Assembly: GCF_030219325.1 (NCBI RefSeq)
Contig: NZ_CP126625.1
Span: 3,274,857-3,338,856 of the forward strand
Direction: 5' to 3'
From: Geothrix sp.
Lineage (GTDB): Bacteria; Acidobacteriota; Holophagae; Holophagales; Holophagaceae
DNA: 64,000 bases
The position numbers and the translations under genes are program-made. The notes beneath the pieces were generated by a model that saw only the letters and a program-made list of their open reading frames with translations, made no database searches and was not told the DNA's origin. This document shows positions 36,406-59,834 of the stretch, piece after piece (position 1 is the first letter of the stretch; every line of letters begins with the position of its first letter).

Positions 36406-36437
36406 AAAAAATCCGGGGAGGGTTGCCCCTCCCCGGA
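36406..36437 (-). terminator. Rho-independent terminator of the multicopper oxidase gene
   Basis: A perfect 11-bp stem, TCCGGGGAGGG (36412-36422) with CCCTCCCCGGA (36427-36437) and loop TTGC, is followed on the minus strand by six T residues (36411-36406). It lies 33 bases after the stop codon at 36470 and isolates this gene from the Wzz-like gene downstream. Confidence 0.93.
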
Positions 36438-36469
36438 TGTCTTCCTACTGCTGGTGAAAGGTCCCAGGA

Positions 36470-39400
36470 TCAATTCGTCCTGGAGTTCCAACCACCCGTC
36501 GGTGCAATGACATTGGTGAAGCTGCGCGCTGCGGGAGCGTAGACCTTCCCGAGACCGGAGTAGGTCAGGGTTCCGCTCCATCCCCGCGGGACGACCATGG
36601 TGAAATTACCGTTCGCATCAGTGGTGGTCGTACCAACACCGCTGGCAGTGATGGTCACTCCGGCCACTCCGACTCGTGGAGCACTGCCGTTGATGTAGAC
36701 CTGGCCGGTGATGCTGACGCCTGTGACTGCGAAGTTCAGGTTGGCCTGGTTCGTGGTCAGGGCGGCGTACGTGTAGTTCACTGGGTTGAAGGTATAGCCA
36801 TTGCGGGTGGCAGTGACGGTGCCGGTCCAGGGTGAGTTGATGGTGCGCGTGTAGTTGCCAAGCGCATCGGTGGTGGCAGTGATGCCGCCGCCGAAGTTCA
36901 CAGTCACGTTCTGCATGGGCAGCCCGCCATTCGTGATGTTGCCCGAGAGCACCACCACGGCCGTCGCACGGTAGTTCTGGCCAGCCTGGACGTTGATCAC
37001 GTTGTTATAGCCGCGCACCGCCGGAGCGAAGGTGTAGCCGGCGAGGCTCGGTGTGGCCGTTCCGGTCCAGCCCCTGGGTACGTCGTGGCTGTAGACGCCG
37101 TTGGCATCCGTGATGGCCGTGCCAGCGCCACCGCTGAAGGTGATGGTGACGCCCGCGATCGGGATGATCGGAACACCGTTGATGTAGACCACGCCAGCGA
37201 TGGGAACCGCAGCCACGGCCGTGTAGTTGGTGACGGTGTTGACGGTGAGGTTGGTGTAGGTGTTCGAAGGCGCGGTGAAGAGGTAACCGGCCTTGCTGGG
37301 AGTGACGGTGCCGGTCCAGCCCGCGTTGACGGTGAAGGAGTAGGAGCCGTCAGCAGCGGTGGTGGTGGTGCCACCGGTGTAGGTCATCGTGACGCCCGCG
37401 AGAGGTGTGGCAGCGGGAAGGAACGTGACGACGCCGGAGACAGTCGCCGTGGCGGCTGCGAAGTTCTGGACAGCGTTCTGGCCAGGGGTGGTGAGGTTCA
37501 TCGCGGCGGACACGGCGGGCAGGAAGACGAGCGTGCCCGAAGTGGCCGTGACGGTGCCAGACCAGGGAACCGGGGTGGTGATGGTGTAGTTCCCCAGCGC
37601 GTCAGTGACTGCGGCGGTGCCGGTGCTGGGCGTGATGGTGGCACCCGCAAGCGGGGCACCATTGAGCGTGACATTGCCAGTGACCGTCGCGAAAGCGGTG
37701 GCCGTGAAGTTCTGGCCACTCAGGTTGGCGGGCCCGAGGGGGCCAAGGGTGCGCAGCGCCGGTGCGAAGGTGTAGCCGAACAGGGCAGGCGTAAGGGTGC
37801 CGGCCCAGCCGTTGGGGACGGTGGCGGTGTAGTTGCCCGTGCCATCGGTGATGGCGACATAGCCGCCATTGCTGAAGGTGAGGGCGACGTTGGCCAAAGG
37901 TCCGCTAAGGGTGCTGACCATGCCGGACACCTGGATGGTGTTCGGGGCATTGACGCTGGCGGTATTGGAGGGCACGGCATAGCCGGCCTGGTTCCAGGCG
38001 ACCACCTGATAGTCGTAGGCCGTGCCGGGGGCAACGGTGAAATCGCTGAAGTTGTTGACGTTGGGGACGACGGTGGCGATCTCCGCGAAGGTGCCGGCAC
38101 CGCCGGGGCTGCGCTGGATGGAGAAGCCGACTTCGTTGGTGGCATTGTCGGTCCAGGCCAGATCGGCGCGGCTGGGCACGCCCATGGTCGCCGTCAGGAG
38201 GGTGGCACCCGCAGGTACGGTGGTGGCCACGACCAGCTTCTCGGGACGCATGAAGTCGTTCTCTTCGTGGCCGAGGATGTGGCAGTGCCACACGTATTCC
38301 CAGCCGAAGTCCTGCGGGGCATTGGAGTAGCCAGCGGCCTGGTTGCCGGTCGCGGGATCCGTGGCATTGACAGAAATGTTCGCGGGCTGCAGGACGTCCA
38401 TCGACCGGAAGCTGTTGGGAATGGCGAAGGGCAGCCGCGGGGACAGGGGCCGGAAGGCGACGATGATGTCTTCCAGCGGGTTCATGCGGACGGTTTCCTT
38501 CCAACCGATTTCGTTGGGTTGGGGCAGGCTGACTGCGCCGTCCCAGCCAACACGGTTGACGATCTGCACATCATAGAGGTGGAAGTGCACGGGGTGGGTG
38601 TCCACACCGTTGTGGGTGATCTTCCAGATCTGGGTTTCGCCATCATTCAGGACTTCCGTGATGGGATCGCGGTAGCCGAGGGGGATGGTGGTCTGGATGT
38701 TGAAGTTGGTGCCGGGGACTTCCACGCCGAGGGTGGCGTTCATCCGGCCGTAGTCGAGCTCGAAGAGCTCCTGGATGGCCTTGTTGAGGAAGGAAGGATT
38801 GACCTGGACGCCGTTTTCCGTGGCGATGAAGCCGGGGAGGGCAGGCAGGACGGCATTGGGGTAGAAGCTGAAGTCCTGGATGCGGGCGAAGGAATCCCGG
38901 GTGACGGTCCGGTTCAGAGCGCTGTTGTAGGCGATCTGGGGAATGATGGGCAGGTGCTGGTCTTCAGCGAAGGCGCTCGCTGCGGTGGCGGTGCCCGTGA
39001 AGGCCGCGTTGAGGGCGGTAACATCAAAGGCCGGGTTCACGCCAGCATTCACCACGACCTGCATGATGGTGCGGGTGTTGGGGCCGAAGCCAGGCAGGGT
39101 GGTCGCCGCGCCGCCGGACGTGGTCTGGTCGACATCGCCGGTGTAGTAGTCCAACCGGGAATCGAAGGCGGGCACCGGGGCAGGCGCGTCGTTGTAGAGG
39201 ATGAGCGTCTTGCCGGCGAAGGCGGAGAAGTCGACGATGACGTCAGCGCGCTCGGCGGGTCCGAGGAAGAGGCCGTGGTTCGTGACGTTGAGCACCACGA
39301 TGTTGCGGCGGTTGTACTCGTAGTTCACCGGCTGGGCGGGGAGCACCGCGGGAGTCGGGAGGAAGCCGCTCTCGTTGCCGATCTGGATCCAGGACGGGCC

Positions 39401-41182
39401 AGCCGTGAGGGGATCCGGCACGCCGCCAGCGCGGCCATCGGTGGGCCAAGTGGCCGGCCAGGCGACGTTGGGCGTGGCGGGAACCATCGTGACGTCCTTG
39501 CCCGTGGCATCAGCCACAAACCAGGACAGGTTCCACATGCGGTCGTTGGCAGCATTCAAGACGCGGAAGCGGTAGGCCTTGGGATCCACCGTGGTGGTGG
39601 GATAGGGCGTGCCGTTGACCAGCGGGGTGTCCATGAAGGCTTCGGGCACCAGGGAGGGATTGGGCGTGCCGGGATAGGTGGTCCCATTGGGATCACCGAT
39701 GACCGGCTCTTCGCCGTGCACCAGGCCAGCCGCTGCGGTCAGCGGGGGCCAGAACCACGGGCCGTAGTCCCACCGACCCATGGCATTGGCGCCGGAGATG
39801 TCGGCAGGGTTCTGGTTGGGCATGTAGACGTGGGGATACCAGAGGGCGCCATCGCCGCCGTACTTGGCCACGTCCCACGTGGGATCGGTGCCGCCGGCGA
39901 CGCCGACGGTGCCGAGGGTGGTGGTGTCGACGAAGGTCTTGTCCTGGATGATGAGGGGGATGCCATAGCGGTACACGCCAGCAGGATCGCCCTGGTCGGG
40001 GAGGATCCCGGCGTTGATGAGCCGTTCATCCGTGGGGCTGGTGATCAGGTAGCCGGCGGCCTCGCCGGCATACACGTTCAGGCGGGTGAGGCCGAACGCG
40101 TGATCGTGGTAGAACATCAGGCGGCCGCTCTGCTGGTTGGTCCAGAAGTAGGTGGCGATGCCATCGGTGGGGGTGGCGCCAGCGGCCATGTCGGGCACGT
40201 TCTGGAAGACCGCGCCCTTGGGGTAGCTGGTGGTCTCACCGGCGGGGGTGACCCACTGGTGCGGCGTGCCGTCACTGATCCAGGGGCTGAGGCCACCATG
40301 GAGGTGGAACTCGGCGCGGTTCTCGGTGAAGGTCTCAGTCCCACCGTTGAGCCCGATGCCGGCGCCCATGAGGGTGGTGTCCACGGGGAGGAAGAGATCG
40401 CCGGGGCGACGGCCCGTGGCGGGGTTCACCGGACCGACGGGCAGCATGTTGGTCATCTTCACGCGGACGGGGCGGTCCTTGGTGGCGATGATGACGGGCC
40501 CGAGGTACTGAGTGTTGGCACCGGTCGTCGCGTTGGCGACGGACTCAGCGAGCGGGTTCAGATCCTTGTAACCACGGAACTTGGTGGCGTTCAAATCCGT
40601 GTGCACCTTCTGGGTGTACTCGGTCACGCCGATTTCGTAGTAGTCCGCTCCGGGATAGGTGATCTTGTCGGGCACGGCCACGGGGATGAAGTTCCCCAGG
40701 TTGTTCGGGTGCGCGGCGCTGAGGCCGGGCAGCGTATCAATGAACTTGTGGATGGGCTTGGTGTTGTGCCAGTTGGAGGCGGTGCCGAACATGTAGTCCG
40801 GCTGTGCGAGCTGGAAGCCAGGGCCAGGGACGAGCACACTCTGGGGGCCACCGGCCTTGGCCTTCGCGGCGGTCGCTCTGGCAGCGCCGAGAGAAGCCGC
40901 GGGGTTGGTGCCCAGGGTCTGGGGATCGACCTTGCCACCCTTGGCCTTGAGGGCCGCCTGCTGGCGCGCGGCTGCGGCTGCCCGCGCGGCGTTCAGCTGG
41001 CCACGGCGGTTGGCCCGTTCCACGACGGCGGCACGATCGCCACCGGCCTGGGGGGCCATCGTGCGGTTCTGGCCAGGAGCCTCGGCCGGAGCCTTGGCTG
41101 TGGCCGGAGCCGCTGCCTGCGCGCCGAATCCCAGGAGAAGGGACGCGGCCAGCGCGAGCAGTTGTTTGAACCTTGTGAGCAT
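36470..41182 (-). CDS. Large secreted multicopper oxidase with fibronectin-like domain and six C-terminal repeats
   Basis: A 1570-residue exported protein. The ATG at 41182 has GAGGTG upstream and gives a signal peptide (LLALAASLLLGFGAQAAA). Four copper-site motifs of multicopper oxidases are visible: FHLHGG near residue 292, YHDHAFG near 357, HPVHFHLYD near 864, and the T1/trinuclear HCHILGHE near 969. A fibronectin type III-like domain follows (about 1005-1090), then six repeats of about 80 residues (about 1090-1570) with words like TDANGNY and GWTGT-TP--GYTFAPA. The repeats resemble carboxypeptidase-regulatory-like or Ig-like surface domains. Geobacter sulfurreducens OmpB is a large multicopper protein with a fibronectin domain needed for Fe(III)-oxide reduction; similarity of architecture is inferred here, not measured. 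An SCO copper chaperone and a heme protein gene lie upstream on the same strand. Confidence 0.9.
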   Translation of the reverse strand: MLTRFKQLLALAASLLLGFGAQAAAPATAKAPAEAPGQNRTMAPQAGGDRAAVVERANRRGQLNAARAAAAARQQAALKAKGGKVDPQTLGTNPAASLGAARATAAKAKAGGPQSVLVPGPGFQLAQPDYMFGTASNWHNTKPIHKFIDTLPGLSAAHPNNLGNFIPVAVPDKITYPGADYYEIGVTEYTQKVHTDLNATKFRGYKDLNPLAESVANATTGANTQYLGPVIIATKDRPVRVKMTNMLPVGPVNPATGRRPGDLFLPVDTTLMGAGIGLNGGTETFTENRAEFHLHGGLSPWISDGTPHQWVTPAGETTSYPKGAVFQNVPDMAAGATPTDGIATYFWTNQQSGRLMFYHDHAFGLTRLNVYAGEAAGYLITSPTDERLINAGILPDQGDPAGVYRYGIPLIIQDKTFVDTTTLGTVGVAGGTDPTWDVAKYGGDGALWYPHVYMPNQNPADISGANAMGRWDYGPWFWPPLTAAAGLVHGEEPVIGDPNGTTYPGTPNPSLVPEAFMDTPLVNGTPYPTTTVDPKAYRFRVLNAANDRMWNLSWFVADATGKDVTMVPATPNVAWPATWPTDGRAGGVPDPLTAGPSWIQIGNESGFLPTPAVLPAQPVNYEYNRRNIVVLNVTNHGLFLGPAERADVIVDFSAFAGKTLILYNDAPAPVPAFDSRLDYYTGDVDQTTSGGAATTLPGFGPNTRTIMQVVVNAGVNPAFDVTALNAAFTGTATAASAFAEDQHLPIIPQIAYNSALNRTVTRDSFARIQDFSFYPNAVLPALPGFIATENGVQVNPSFLNKAIQELFELDYGRMNATLGVEVPGTNFNIQTTIPLGYRDPITEVLNDGETQIWKITHNGVDTHPVHFHLYDVQIVNRVGWDGAVSLPQPNEIGWKETVRMNPLEDIIVAFRPLSPRLPFAIPNSFRSMDVLQPANISVNATDPATGNQAAGYSNAPQDFGWEYVWHCHILGHEENDFMRPEKLVVATTVPAGATLLTATMGVPSRADLAWTDNATNEVGFSIQRSPGGAGTFAEIATVVPNVNNFSDFTVAPGTAYDYQVVAWNQAGYAVPSNTASVNAPNTIQVSGMVSTLSGPLANVALTFSNGGYVAITDGTGNYTATVPNGWAGTLTPALFGYTFAPALRTLGPLGPANLSGQNFTATAFATVTGNVTLNGAPLAGATITPSTGTAAVTDALGNYTITTPVPWSGTVTATSGTLVFLPAVSAAMNLTTPGQNAVQNFAAATATVSGVVTFLPAATPLAGVTMTYTGGTTTTAADGSYSFTVNAGWTGTVTPSKAGYLFTAPSNTYTNLTVNTVTNYTAVAAVPIAGVVYINGVPIIPIAGVTITFSGGAGTAITDANGVYSHDVPRGWTGTATPSLAGYTFAPAVRGYNNVINVQAGQNYRATAVVVLSGNITNGGLPMQNVTVNFGGGITATTDALGNYTRTINSPWTGTVTATRNGYTFNPVNYTYAALTTNQANLNFAVTGVSITGQVYINGSAPRVGVAGVTITASGVGTTTTDANGNFTMVVPRGWSGTLTYSGLGKVYAPAARSFTNVIAPTGGWNSRTN

Positions 41183-41343
41183 GGTGCACCTCGCTTTGGA
41201 GTGAAAAAGAAGAAGGAAGAAGGGAGAGCGCGCAAAAGAACGAGAGGGGAATCGCAGCCAAGCCATTCCAGATGAAAGGAGACCGGGTGCGACAACTTGT
41301 CCTAAAGAGAATCCAAGCGTCGGCCGGATACACATTTAGAGGT

Positions 41344-41361
41344 ATGGGTAGATCTACCCAT
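41344..41361. promoter_or_regulatory. Perfect 18-bp palindrome upstream of the multicopper oxidase gene
   Basis: ATGGGTAGATCTACCCAT is its own reverse complement. It lies in the 269-base gap between the Kelch lipoprotein gene and the multicopper oxidase start, 162 bases before that start. A palindrome without loop suits a dimeric repressor or activator better than a terminator, and no T-run follows. I found no clear -35/-10 pair around it. No regulator gene is adjacent. Confidence 0.45.
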
Positions 41362-41451
41362 CGACGGGGTAGGAACCATGTAAATTGGAATCAATACAGT
41401 GGTTGTGAGACTAAGACTCAACCTTTTGGTCGCTTCGACTCACCACGCGCA

Positions 41452-43080
41452 TCAGAAATAGAGTTCGGCACTCGCCAGGTAGGCGGTGTTGCCCGCCCCA
41501 CCCACGATCAGGACCTTCCCGTTCGGCAGGGTGGTCGCCGTGTGGAGCTCCCGGATCTCGGCCATAGAACCGGTCGCCGCGCAGAGTCCCGTGCCAGGGT
41601 CATACAGCTCGGCCACCGAGAGCAGGGGCGCGGGGCTGCCTGTGCCCACCCCCCCGACGATGAGGACGGTCCCATTGGCCAAGAGGGCAGCCGCGTGGTA
41701 CTGGCTTCTCGCCGTGACCAGGCTCCCTGAAGCGGAGAAGGTCCCGGCGGACGGATCATAGAGCTCCGTGGCGGTGGTGGTGGCCCCACCCACCACCAGC
41801 ACCTTGCCGCTCGCGAGGAGCGTGGCCGTGTGATAGGAGCGGGCAGCAGCCAGGACTCCGGTGGCGGCGAAGGTGCCAGTCCCGGGATCGTACAATTCTG
41901 CCGTTGCCAGCTTGTTGCCCTGGAAGAATCCGCCAGCGATCAGGACCTTGCCCGTCCCCAGGAGCGTGGCGCTGTGGGTGGCCCGGGGGCTCAAAGGTGC
42001 GTTGGCCGTGGTGGTGAATAGTCCCGTACTTGGATCGTAGATCTCGGCACTTGCGACGTAGGTGGTTGCCCCATTGCGCCCCGATACGATCAGGACCTTT
42101 CCACCCTGCAGCAGGGTTGCGGAATGGTCGGACCGGGCTGCCTGCAGGCTGCCTGTGGTGGGGGTGAAGGTTCCGGAAGTGGGATCATAGACCTCGGCAG
42201 TGGCCGTGGTCGTGACGAAATTGACGCCCCCGGCGATCAGGACCTTGCCGTCGGCCAGGAGCGTGGCGGTGTGGTGATCGCGGGCGGTGGTGAGCGGGCC
42301 CGTCGCGGTGAACAAGCCGGTGGCTGGATCATAGAGCTCGGCACCACTCATGCTGTTGCCGTTGAATCCTCCGACGATCAGCACCTTGCCATTCTGCAGC
42401 AGGGTGGCGGTGTGGGAGTACCGGCCGTTGGTCAGGCTGCCGGTGGCGGTGAACGTGCCGGGCCCGGCCAGGCTGACGGTGAGGATGGCCGCCGCGCTGG
42501 TGACGCTGGCGGTCGTGGCATCCACGACCTGGACCGTGAAGCTGCCGCCATTGTCTGCGAGGGCGGTGGCAGGGGTGGTGTAGGACGCCGAGGTGGCCCC
42601 GGGGATGGCGACGCCGCCGAGCAGCCACTGGTAGGAGAGTGTTCCGGTGCCAGTGGCCACCACGGTGAAGGTGGCCGTCTGGCCCACCAGGACCCACTGG
42701 CTCGCGGGCTGGGTGGTGATGGCAAGGGTGACCGGATCATTGACGGTGATGCTGATCGAGGCGGTGGCACTGCCGGCACTGTTGGCACCCGTCACGGTGT
42801 AGGTGGCGGTGGCGGTCGCCAGCGTGGGCGTCCCCGTGATCACCCCCGAGCTGGCGTTGAGGGCCAGGCCTGCGGGAAGCGCCGGGCTGACGGAATAGGA
42901 ATCGATGCTGCCGCCACTGTGGGTGGGGTTGTTGGCCGGTATGGCCGTCCTGGTGGTGTACACGGCGGGGTTGGAGCTGTAGACGAGGCCTGTGGGCGCC
43001 TCGGCCACATCCTTGCAGCCCGTGACCAGCATGGCCAGCCCGAGCAGCATTGCCGACAGCCCACACCGGACCCGTTGCAT
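41452..43080 (-). CDS. Kelch-repeat lipoprotein with putative Ig-like domains
   Basis: A 542-residue lipoprotein: signal peptide with lipobox VTGC (Cys22). Residues about 30-115 look like a putative-Ig cadherin-like domain (SYSVSPALPAGLALNASSGVITGTP), and about 118-205 like an Ig-like domain (PASQWVLVGQTATFTVVATGTG). The remaining part is a Kelch-type propeller of about seven blades of some 48 residues, with the core HTATLL--GKVLI-GG and AELYDP-TG-F. It is probably anchored at the outer membrane, facing outwards or to the periplasm. It follows the cytochrome/binding-protein gene by 67 bases and precedes the multicopper oxidase gene. Function is unknown; binding of a surface ligand is a guess. 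Confidence 0.85.
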   Translation of the reverse strand: MQRVRCGLSAMLLGLAMLVTGCKDVAEAPTGLVYSSNPAVYTTRTAIPANNPTHSGGSIDSYSVSPALPAGLALNASSGVITGTPTLATATATYTVTGANSAGSATASISITVNDPVTLAITTQPASQWVLVGQTATFTVVATGTGTLSYQWLLGGVAIPGATSASYTTPATALADNGGSFTVQVVDATTASVTSAAAILTVSLAGPGTFTATGSLTNGRYSHTATLLQNGKVLIVGGFNGNSMSGAELYDPATGLFTATGPLTTARDHHTATLLADGKVLIAGGVNFVTTTATAEVYDPTSGTFTPTTGSLQAARSDHSATLLQGGKVLIVSGRNGATTYVASAEIYDPSTGLFTTTANAPLSPRATHSATLLGTGKVLIAGGFFQGNKLATAELYDPGTGTFAATGVLAAARSYHTATLLASGKVLVVGGATTTATELYDPSAGTFSASGSLVTARSQYHAAALLANGTVLIVGGVGTGSPAPLLSVAELYDPGTGLCAATGSMAEIRELHTATTLPNGKVLIVGGAGNTAYLASAELYF

Positions 43081-43147
43081 AAATACCTCAATCAGCGGAA
43101 GACGACATCACCCAGAAGGATATCCCAAGTGGGCAGCCAGCCCAGTC

Positions 43148-44860
43148 TCAGTGGGTCACCCATTCGCTTTTCCGGACCAGTCGCGGCTCCGGGCCCGGGC
43201 TGAGCTGCATGATGTAGCAGCCCTTGGAGGCGTACCGCTGACCCGGTCCGAAGCTCAACCGGAGGTAGTCCGGAAGCACCTGGTCGCGCTGCATCCCGAT
43301 GCGGTCCATGAAATTATCCCGGTAATAGTTTCGATCCATGTCCATGAGCCCCTGGATCAGGATCTGGATCATCGAGTAGGTCCGGGTGGCGATGCGGGTC
43401 TCGGGGTTCCGGTTCGTGAAGCCCGCGAACAAGCTGTTGGCGTACTTGGAGACATTTGGTTCCACCTGGGGATCCCGATACGGGTAGGTCAGCCAGGTGA
43501 AGGGCCTCGCCTGCTCGGGCAATTTGTAAATCTGCGCGCCAAGGCGACTGGATGCCAGGAACACGAACTTGGGCATCTCAGGGCGGCCCGCCAGGTCCCC
43601 AAGGGCCTCAAAGCAGCTCGCATCCGTCCACAGCAGGACCGCGGTGGGTTGCTCCCGCTGCAGGATGGCGCCCAACGTTACCGCATCCACTTGCTCTCCC
43701 TTGCCGAGGCGGATTTGCTTGGCCACCCCAAGTCCCAGTTCCTGCCAGGTCTCCCGGAAGCCAGCGGAGAGATCGCGGCCCTCCGGGCCCTCCTGGACGA
43801 TCTGCAGGACACGTTCAGTAGCCGCGCGTTCGTCCAGGCTCTGGAGGTACCTGGCGGCCGCCTGGCCCTCCTGGTAGTAACCCTTGGAGAAGTACTGGGT
43901 GTACCAGTCGGTCTCAGAGACCACCGGCAGGTCGGTGAGGGGGAAGAGGCAGGGCAGCCTGTGGTTCTCACAGAAGGTGTGGATGGGTCTCCACTCTCCG
44001 TAGGAAATCCCGCCCAGCAGCGCGAACACGGGTTCCTTTGCCAGGTAGGCCGACAGCTGCCGGTCCCAGGTTTCGGGCGCGCCCTTCAGCCGCCAGACCG
44101 ACAACGACAGCTTCCGGTAGGCACCGCTCATTTCACTGCCGCCGGGCGCGAGGTACATCCGGTTGCCGAACCCACTGGAGAGCTGGTTGTGCCGGGCCAC
44201 ATAGTTGTTCATGGGCGCGAGCATGGCCTCCTGATCTTCGGGGCGGACTTCCTCCGTGATGACCGTGGCGAACCGGATGGTGGTGGCATCCACGCCGGGG
44301 GACCACTCCGCCGACAGGTTTCTCAGGTAATGGACCAGGACGGCCATGTCCTTGTCCTTGAGTTCATAGCGTGGCATGGCCGCGTGCAGCTCGTAGCCGG
44401 AGGGATCGATGCCGACGCGGATGACGCGGGCCAGCGCCGGATCCGTGTAGGCAGGCCGAGCCTGCGGGTTCTGGAGCTTCAGCTCGGCCCGCTCTTCAGG
44501 ACTGAGGTTGGGGAATTTCCAGTACCTCGGCTGGGCAAGCTTGGCGCCATTGGTGGGTAGGGTCACGATGCCCCCTTCCCAGGACCCAAGCCCCCCGCGC
44601 AGGTGGCAGCTCGCGCAGCTGAACGAGGTACCTGCCACGGGCACATCCGTGCTGACGACGGACTGCATGGGCTCACCCGAGGGGAGGATGCCTTCCCGGT
44701 ACATGCGCTCACCCAGGGCCAGGGCCTTGGCTTCAGGAAGGCCCGCGATGGTCTTCGGCTTCTTGTCCCGCGCCAGAGCGGGCGGCGCCAGCAGCAGGCT
44801 GAGGCCCAGGATCCCGGCCAGGATCCGCCCGAAGGAGTTCGACCACCCCGCCCCGCTCAC
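43148..44860 (-). CDS. Cytochrome c domain fused to a periplasmic substrate-binding protein
   Basis: A 570-residue exported protein. I choose the GTG at 44860, which overlaps the SCO stop as GTGA and has GGGGA upstream; an ATG at 44881 is possible. Signal peptide residues about 10-31. The heme c motif CASCH is near residues 82-86, in a cytochrome domain reaching to about 190 with a candidate Met ligand in AAMPRYELKDKD. From about 195 to the end is a Leu/Ile/Val-binding-protein-like (type I periplasmic binding protein) domain: IRFATVITEEVRPEDQEAMLAPMNNYVARHN, then LLGGISYGEWRPIHTFCENHRLPCLFPLTDLP, and FSKGYYQEGQAAARYLQ. No transporter gene is adjacent, so it may be a redox sensor or receptor, not a transport protein. 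Confidence 0.85.
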   Translation of the reverse strand: MSGAGWSNSFGRILAGILGLSLLLAPPALARDKKPKTIAGLPEAKALALGERMYREGILPSGEPMQSVVSTDVPVAGTSFSCASCHLRGGLGSWEGGIVTLPTNGAKLAQPRYWKFPNLSPEERAELKLQNPQARPAYTDPALARVIRVGIDPSGYELHAAMPRYELKDKDMAVLVHYLRNLSAEWSPGVDATTIRFATVITEEVRPEDQEAMLAPMNNYVARHNQLSSGFGNRMYLAPGGSEMSGAYRKLSLSVWRLKGAPETWDRQLSAYLAKEPVFALLGGISYGEWRPIHTFCENHRLPCLFPLTDLPVVSETDWYTQYFSKGYYQEGQAAARYLQSLDERAATERVLQIVQEGPEGRDLSAGFRETWQELGLGVAKQIRLGKGEQVDAVTLGAILQREQPTAVLLWTDASCFEALGDLAGRPEMPKFVFLASSRLGAQIYKLPEQARPFTWLTYPYRDPQVEPNVSKYANSLFAGFTNRNPETRIATRTYSMIQILIQGLMDMDRNYYRDNFMDRIGMQRDQVLPDYLRLSFGPGQRYASKGCYIMQLSPGPEPRLVRKSEWVTH

Positions 44861-45435
44861 AGGATCCCCACTTTCTTGCATTCATCCATGAACTCGGAGG
44901 AGCTCATCAGGCCGAAAAGGCGCACCCACTGCCCGGTCTTGGGATCCCGGATCAGGGTCAGGGGGTAGTGCAGCATCTTGTTGGGGATGTAGGCATTGAA
45001 GGCGTGCATCACCTTGTCGATGTCCTCCCGCTTTCCGGTGAGGAAATCCCAGCCTGGCTTGGCGCGGTACCGCTTGAGGTAGTCGCGCATCACCTTGGGC
45101 GTATCGTTCTCCGGATCGATGGAGATGGAGATGAGACGGGCCTTCGCGGCCTGGCCCGGCAGTTTCAGCTGGAGGTTGGCGTAGCCCGCCGACAGGACGG
45201 GGCAGATGGTCGTGCAGGTCCCGAAGATGAAGTCGACGATGATGGGGTCGTTGGTCTCCAGCAGGGTCTTCAGCTTCACCTTGGTCCCATCCTGGTTCAC
45301 CAGGGTGACATCGGGCACGGTGTAGGCCTCGATGGTCCGTTTGACGGGGGGAGGCGCCTGGGCCGAGAGGCTGCTGGCCAGGGCGGCGCAGATTCCAAAC
45401 AGCAATCCGGCCGTGTGCCACATGCGTCGAGTCAT
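44857..45435 (-). CDS. SCO1/SenC family copper-binding thioredoxin-like protein
   Basis: A 192-residue exported or membrane-anchored protein (hydrophobic N-terminus, about residues 6-26). The copper site CTTIC (Cys74, Cys78; CxxxC) and a later His in MLHYPLTLI (near 152) fit the SCO family, as does SIDPENDTPKVM near 115. SCO proteins deliver copper to the CuA site of cytochrome oxidase or act as thiol reductants. Here it is coupled to the cytochrome/binding-protein fusion gene and lies in the same strand run as a multicopper oxidase, not next to the cox genes at the other end of the window. The ATG at 45435 has GGAGGA upstream. Confidence 0.92.
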   Translation of the reverse strand: MTRRMWHTAGLLFGICAALASSLSAQAPPPVKRTIEAYTVPDVTLVNQDGTKVKLKTLLETNDPIIVDFIFGTCTTICPVLSAGYANLQLKLPGQAAKARLISISIDPENDTPKVMRDYLKRYRAKPGWDFLTGKREDIDKVMHAFNAYIPNKMLHYPLTLIRDPKTGQWVRLFGLMSSSEFMDECKKVGIL

Positions 45436-57920: not shown

Positions 57921-57996
57921 TGGCAGGGGAGACAGGGTTCGAACCCGCGACCTGCGGATTTGGAGTCCGCTGCTCTACCAGCTGAGCTACTCCCCT
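57921..57996 (-). tRNA. tRNA-Trp (anticodon CCA)
   Basis: Acceptor arms AGGGGAG (57996-57990) and CTCCCCT (57931-57925) pair perfectly. The anticodon loop is CTCCAAA with CCA, the T arm contains GGTTCGAACC, and CCA is encoded at the 3' end. It lies between rpmG and secE, the same place as in E. coli. Confidence 0.97.
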
Positions 57997-58002
57997 GTGG
58001 GA

Positions 58003-58030
58003 CCGCCCGGCGACTGGTGGCGCCGGGCGG
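58003..58030 (-). other. GC hairpin between rpmG and tRNA-Trp
   Basis: CCGCCCGGCG (58003-58012) is mirrored perfectly by CGCCGGGCGG (58021-58030) with an 8-base loop. No T-run follows on the minus strand. Position suggests a processing structure in front of the tRNA. Confidence 0.5.
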
Positions 58031-58051
58031 GGAACCCTTGGATCCCGAGCC

Positions 58052-58201
58052 CTACTTGGACTCGCGATGGATCTTGTAACCACCACAGAAACGGCAGAAC
58101 TTGTTGAATTCAAGCTTGCCCGTGGTGGTCTTCTTGTTCTTGGTGGTGCTGTAGTTCTTGCGTTTGCATTCCTGGCACTGCAGGTGAACGATGTCGCGCA
58201 T
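58052..58201 (-). CDS. rpmG: 50S ribosomal protein L33
   Basis: A 49-residue protein: MRDIVHLQCQECKRKNYSTT at the N-terminus, then KNKKTTTGKLEFNKFC and RFCGGYKIHRESK. Two CxxC pairs (Cys9/Cys12 and Cys36/Cys39) make this the zinc-binding form of L33. The ATG at 58201 follows AGGAGGTCACC. It lies between tuf and tRNA-Trp, 32 bases after tuf. Confidence 0.96.
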   Translation of the reverse strand: MRDIVHLQCQECKRKNYSTTKNKKTTTGKLEFNKFCRFCGGYKIHRESK

Positions 58202-58233
58202 GGTGACCTCCTAAGTCGGAGGGCGGATCGGCC

Positions 58234-59427
<1,194 letters not shown>

Positions 59428-59478
59428 GAATGCCTCCTGAAAGGTGGGAGAGAAGATGAAGGGGAACTGTGCAAAAGG

Positions 59479-59553
<75 letters not shown>

Positions 59554-59621
59554 TTTGAACGCTCCCGCCGCCCGGCGGGTGACTTGACCGTCTTCCGGAG
59601 TGGTCCGGACGACGGGGAGGG

Positions 59622-59698
<77 letters not shown>

Positions 59699-59747
59699 GT
59701 GGAACTCCGAGTACGGGACCCAGCCATCTGGAAGAGCTCCAGGGGAC

Positions 59748-59834
59748 TGGTGCCGAGAGAAGGATTCGAACCTCCGTAACGCGTTGCGTGGCAGATTTAC
59801 AGTCTGCTGCCATTAACCACTCGGCCATCTCGGC
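59748..59834 (-). tRNA. tRNA-Tyr (anticodon GTA)
   Basis: An 87-base tRNA with a long variable arm (class II). Acceptor arms GCCGAGA and TCTCGGC pair; the anticodon stem CAGAC/ATCTG region encloses TGTAAA with GTA. CCA is encoded at 59750-59748. It is first of the tRNA-Tyr, -Gly, -Thr, tuf series. Confidence 0.97.

Follow-up and report, generated by a model that had tools for sequence, protein, structure and literature searches.

The window analysed here is a stretch of 64,000 nucleotides (G000:C1:3274857-3338856) from the single-contig, 3.73-Mb genome of a Geothrix sp. Four genes with Pfam support lie on its minus strand in the order SCO-MofC-Kelch-MCO, together with a conserved cis element and an intrinsic terminator (Table 1). 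A copper/heme module of four genes, running in one direction and ending at a strong terminator, had been proposed from the DNA alone, and this description was borne out. Export signals, also anticipated for all four products, were recognised by eye: type I signal peptides in the SCO, MofC-like and MCO proteins, and a lipobox (LVTGC) in the Kelch protein. The small gaps that had been described hold for the first three genes, where SCO and MofC-like genes overlap by 25 bp and the MofC-Kelch gap is 67 nt, but not for the Kelch-MCO gap, which is 269 nt long and contains the conserved cis element; the MCO gene is not tightly within an operon of the other three. According to the ORF list, rpoC is the upstream neighbour of the cluster, and sugar-nucleotide/exopolysaccharide genes lie downstream. 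Elsewhere in the window, four tRNA genes were found with Rfam at 57924-59834, on the minus strand.

Table 1. Features of the four-gene cluster, in window coordinates
Feature	Position	Strand	Details
SCO1/SenC copper chaperone	44857..45435	-	192 aa, PF02630 E=8e-20
MofC-like cytochrome c/Peripla_BP_6 fusion	43148..44881	-	PF00034 + PF13458
Lipoprotein with Kelch beta-propeller and two Ig-like domains	41452..43080	-	Kelch_4 E=7e-35, He_PIG E=6e-10
Probable operator: conserved cis element AATTTACATGGTTCCTACCCCGTCGATGGGTAGATCTACCCATACC	41341..41386	-	161 nt upstream of MCO ATG
Giant secreted multicopper oxidase (MCO), 1570 aa	36470..41182	-	Pfam, CotA-like core
Intrinsic terminator	36411..36438	-	12-bp stem (9 GC pairs), T run; 31 nt past MCO stop

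The SCO protein, one of four encoded in the genome, carries a CxxxC motif at C74/C78 (CTTIC). In the MofC-like protein there is a single heme site, CASCH at residues 89-93, and alignment showed Met169 to be invariant; its binding domain was predicted to adopt a type I periplasmic-binding fold that resembles branched-chain/aromatic-binding proteins, in a model of moderate quality (pLDDT 62). Experimental proof of the role of MofC was not found in the literature searched. The Kelch lipoprotein has cysteines only at positions 6, 22 (lipobox) and 500, i.e. one besides those of the signal sequence. Its assignment as a copper-radical (galactose/glyoxal) oxidase was considered and rejected, as there are no candidates for the Cys-Tyr cofactor; the GlxA model was matched only in part, scoring 57.6 bits where its cut-off is 800.

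For the MCO, the longest ORF opens at 41335, and the start was set at 41182 based on the signal peptide, the ribosome-binding site and alignment with relatives. The protein comprises a CotA-like core (residues ~130-990), an Fn3-like segment (~990-1085) and about six carboxypeptidase-regulatory-like beta-sandwich repeats that continue to the C-terminus. The core matched CotA laccase by sequence (E = 1e-35), and its predicted fold (mean pLDDT 80, TM ~0.8 on the target) was that of CotA/bilirubin oxidase, CueO not being the closest. All four copper motifs are present (HLHGG, FYHDH, HPVHFH and WHCHILGHEENDFM), and the type-1 (T1) axial position, Cys+10, which aligned with Met502 of CotA, is Phe. 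No equivalog in an NCBIfam search reached its own cut-off. One motif of the Fe(III)-binding EXXE type was found where 0.65 would be expected by chance, so that its presence is uninformative. The CotA fold, along with a match to a phenoxazinone-synthase-type model, would fit an extracellular laccase that acts on phenolic or humic matter, or cross-links the cell matrix, and does not use metals as substrate; the exopolysaccharide genes downstream and the likeness of the MofC binding domain to aromatic-compound binding proteins, among others, point in the same direction. That likeness was read from the model of moderate quality (pLDDT 62), and we regard a role of this kind as decidedly unlikely.

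Every giant MCO of Holophagaceae whose motif was scored has axial Phe, except that of G070, which has Met. In a tree built from 89 MCO cores by a quick method, with some long branches, the distribution of Phe and Met requires about five changes, and axial Phe has therefore been gained or lost repeatedly. A strict tie between axial Phe and MofC was also considered, and was rejected because Geobacteraceae pair SCO-MofC with axial-Met giant MCOs. Homologues of the giant MCO with 50-57% core identity were found in Geobacter argillaceus, Geomonas and Geomesophilobacter, and genera such as Neobacillus and Micromonospora also carry the same MCO family. Redox potential depends on more than the axial residue. 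By analogy with laccases, in which axial Phe accompanies higher T1 potentials and a Met-to-Phe replacement raised the potential by ~60 mV in one enzyme (PMC6487685), the T1 potential of the Geothrix MCO may be high.

Conservation of the four-gene order, which the original prediction had put forward as a check, was examined in 77 Holophagaceae genomes, using E below 1e-100 as the threshold for giant-MCO homologues. Such homologues were found in 24 genomes, as were MofC-like genes; 22 genomes contained both, 51 neither, and two each contained one without the other (Fisher P = 7e-15, uncorrected for phylogeny). The cluster itself was present in 20 genomes and missing from many Geothrix genomes. 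Its order was complete in 12 of these (including G017 and G041, whose MCO is cut by a contig end), cut by contig ends in 5, and variant in 3, namely G014 (rearranged), G021 (without SCO) and G043 (without SCO and Kelch nearby). The genes are thus kept together among Holophagaceae genomes, often directly downstream of rpoC, and the recurrence of rpoC as upstream neighbour in six relatives with flanking sequence suggests that the cluster was inherited vertically. Strong MofC-like matches came from only 10 of the 297 Acidobacteriota genomes, and 8 of these 10 belong to Holophagaceae. The separation of the MCO gene by 269 nt with a cis element of its own might be taken to mean that the four genes are chance neighbours without joint function, but the conserved order and the co-occurrence (P = 7e-15) make this very improbable. 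In one Holophagaceae MAG (G038:C142; L085, L098, L109), several giant MCO genes stand in tandem beside a single SCO-MofC-Kelch set. The record JAJTBC010000239.1 (L090), labelled as a Bacillota MAG, corresponds to G061, which was placed in Holophagaceae by genome search; the NCBI label looks wrong.

SCO-MofC pairs, or MofC alone, were also found with other MCO partners. Two further sets occur in the same genome, one (L066, G000:C1:225000-243000) with MofC-like and SCO genes and a 735-aa axial-Met MCO, the other (L067, G000:C1:2574000-2592000) with a MofC-like gene and a 736-aa axial-Met MCO. Outside the family, the pair or MofC alone lies near giant MCOs with axial Phe (L202, L203, L206) or axial Met (L208, L234, L235, L238), near small MCOs (L209), and near split Cu-oxidase proteins in Geomonas (L212) and Paraburkholderia (L249). 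The SCO-MofC-MCO neighbourhoods at L202, L203 and L206 (Geobacteraceae and kin) resemble the published ompB cluster. Around some MofC-like copies, e.g. L200 and L210, the stretch examined contained no Cu-oxidase gene. Mainly because the pair stays constant while the MCO partner varies, these arrangements suggest that SCO-MofC services secreted copper oxidases, through either maturation or electron transfer.

Several of these loci have features of their own. In Paraburkholderia (L249, 5008-16427) and on Cupriavidus metallidurans megaplasmids (L171, L170), MofC-like genes are clustered with genes for secreted Ig/cadherin-repeat proteins of 2500-2700 aa; the Paraburkholderia cluster also encodes two split Cu-oxidase proteins, with type II secretion genes nearby, and in the Cupriavidus cluster a PpiC-type isomerase follows SCO. 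At L210 in Geobacter argillaceus, a MofC-like gene with no MCO nearby stands beside NosL-like and ABC transporter genes (by eye), hinting at copper handling.

Copper detoxification was also weighed, in which the MCO would be a cuprous oxidase like CueO, and SCO and MofC would handle copper as its partners. The adjoining SCO gene, a weak match to the CueO model and the NosL-like neighbour in Geobacter argillaceus (by eye) are consistent with it. The giant secreted architecture with adhesive repeats, the absence of a copper pump or CueR-like gene from the cluster and a nearest fold of CotA/bilirubin oxidase type, not CueO, argue against it, and we consider it quite unlikely.

In the Kelch-MCO gap, a block of ~45 nt is conserved where the gaps of relatives otherwise barely align. 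Its core is a perfect palindrome, ATGGGTAGATCTACCCAT (41344-41361), with a third half-site, TACCC, upstream. With up to 3 mismatches allowed, 27 of 39 Holophagaceae MCO records had the core upstream, against 1 of 65 others; these counts are not independent, as the records include repeated loci and some truncated ORFs. None of ~3000 background stretches drawn at random from the window contained it. The element stands before giant MCO genes and not before the SCO gene, and a regulon search of the whole genome with up to 2 mismatches returned one site only. Because the 269-nt gap holds this conserved palindrome, unique in the genome, the MCO gene may thereby have a regulation of its own, distinct from that of the other three. 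No Rfam family matched the element at the gathering threshold, and weaker hits were unconvincing. Two competing hairpins can be drawn, with some compensatory change, and the pair counts are compatible with a hairpin as well as with a symmetric DNA operator. A DNA operator is probable, and is preferred over an RNA switch because an inner palindrome pair is broken in 5 of 18 sequences. The half-site TACCCAT may resemble NarL-type heptamers. Two similar palindromes, ATAGGTAAAACTACCTAT and ATAGGGTGAACTACCTAT, head an MCO gene set in a Thiodictyon MAG, a gammaproteobacterium (L143, upstream of 8667), where they are perhaps bound by the same regulator family.

From Geobacter, Leptothrix and Fe(II) oxidisers, ompB/mofA-like MCO genes have been described that are clustered with genes for MofC-like proteins (cytochrome c plus a periplasmic-binding domain) and, in some cases, SCO1/SenC (PMC5566968). 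The Geothrix cluster matches this published description: it has a large exported MCO (export signal by eye) with all copper motifs, a MofC-like gene and a SCO1/SenC gene adjoining mofC. It is of the OmpB/MofA type, extended by the Kelch gene. MofB peptidyl-prolyl isomerase is absent among the four genes, as it is from G. sulfurreducens, so that membership of the ompB form is not excluded by its absence. No report of such a cluster for Geothrix was found in the literature searched.

The host encodes an aa3-type oxidase with its own adjoining SCO gene, a cbb3-like oxidase and cytochrome bd, and a third COX1-family member is likely a nitric oxide reductase, the COX1 class labels being a reading from score and length. 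With the aa3, cbb3-like and bd oxidases in the genome, use of O2 is plausible. Presence of COX1 as such was discarded as a test of O2 dependence, since a COX1-family match was obtained in every genome of the genus searched. The module probably serves a secreted, copper-loaded MCO that oxidises an external reductant with O2, where we infer both the substrate and the direction of electron flow. In the periplasm, Cu(I) would come from SCO, whose gene overlaps mofC; MofC would give or take electrons, either for the copper-loading step or for the oxidase. The MCO would then be exported and held at the surface or in the matrix by its C-terminal adhesive-type repeats, perhaps with the Kelch lipoprotein. 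There, an external reductant, which could be Mn(II), Fe(II), Cu(I) or phenolic/humic matter, would be oxidised at a high-potential type-1 copper, and O2 would be reduced to water. Expression of the MCO would be set separately by its own conserved upstream element.

The original prediction had likened the MCO to the large multicopper protein with a fibronectin domain that is needed for reduction of insoluble Fe(III) in Geobacter. The cluster type is indeed that of ompB (PMC5566968), but the Fn3 match reached only 17.1 bits (E=0.0066), below the cut-off of 25. On this reading, the module would serve to reduce insoluble Fe(III)/Mn(IV) oxides, the function claimed for OmpB of Geobacter sulfurreducens, which is secreted by a type II system, with the MCO as a surface electron-transfer or mineral-binding protein; the genus Geothrix includes Fe(III) reducers (PMC8100337), and the homologues in Geobacter argillaceus, Geomonas and Geomesophilobacter also agree with it. 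We nevertheless judge it unlikely: many Geothrix genomes do without the cluster, the MCO family extends to genera such as Neobacillus and Micromonospora, and EXXE motifs, being at the chance level, lend it no support. O2-dependent oxidation is favoured over Fe(III) reduction because the MCO has the full set of oxidase copper ligands and an axial Phe, and the host has aa3, cbb3-like and bd oxidases.

A further suggestion, which we make tentatively and with more doubt than confidence, is that an Fe(III)-reducing Geothrix possesses a high-potential secreted metal oxidase under a dedicated regulator of a private palindromic operator (half-site TACCCAT), and so could take part in both directions of the Fe/Mn cycle, depending on O2. 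If true, the operator would be undescribed, as would an RNA switch, should the site be one instead. Opposite roles have been ascribed to OmpB/MofA-type oxidases: in Geobacter they are linked to Fe(III) reduction, in Leptothrix to the oxidation of Mn/Fe. According to the literature, their functions still require verification. A conserved cluster with a T1 signature that is easily recognised, in a genus that can be cultured and in which the cluster is present in some species and absent from close relatives, offers a clean comparison, and the conserved element could help to show when enzymes of this kind are produced.

Of the known systems, the ompB cluster of Geobacter sulfurreducens (GSU1394-GSU1398; PMC5566968) shares with that of Geothrix a giant secreted MCO, a MofC-like cytochrome c homologue, an adjoining SCO and the lack of mofB; Geothrix differs in the Kelch lipoprotein between MofC and MCO, the weak Fn3 match and the lack of EXXE enrichment. 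With mofABC of Leptothrix discophora and relatives (PMC5566968, PMC8218464), it has in common a large MCO and a MofC-like cytochrome, some of these clusters also having a copper chaperone, whereas the Geothrix cluster is without the MofB peptidyl-prolyl isomerase, contains the Kelch gene and has another gene order. In mats of Fe-oxidising Leptothrix, MofA ranks with the most highly expressed genes (PMC11412304). Fold and the four copper motifs are shared with CotA laccase/bilirubin oxidase, from which the Geothrix MCO differs by axial Phe in place of Met502, about three times the length, C-terminal repeats, and a linked cytochrome and SCO. The two small clusters of the same genome likewise have a MofC-like gene beside an MCO, and SCO in one case, but their MCOs are of ~736 aa with axial Met, and they have neither the Kelch gene nor the conserved element.
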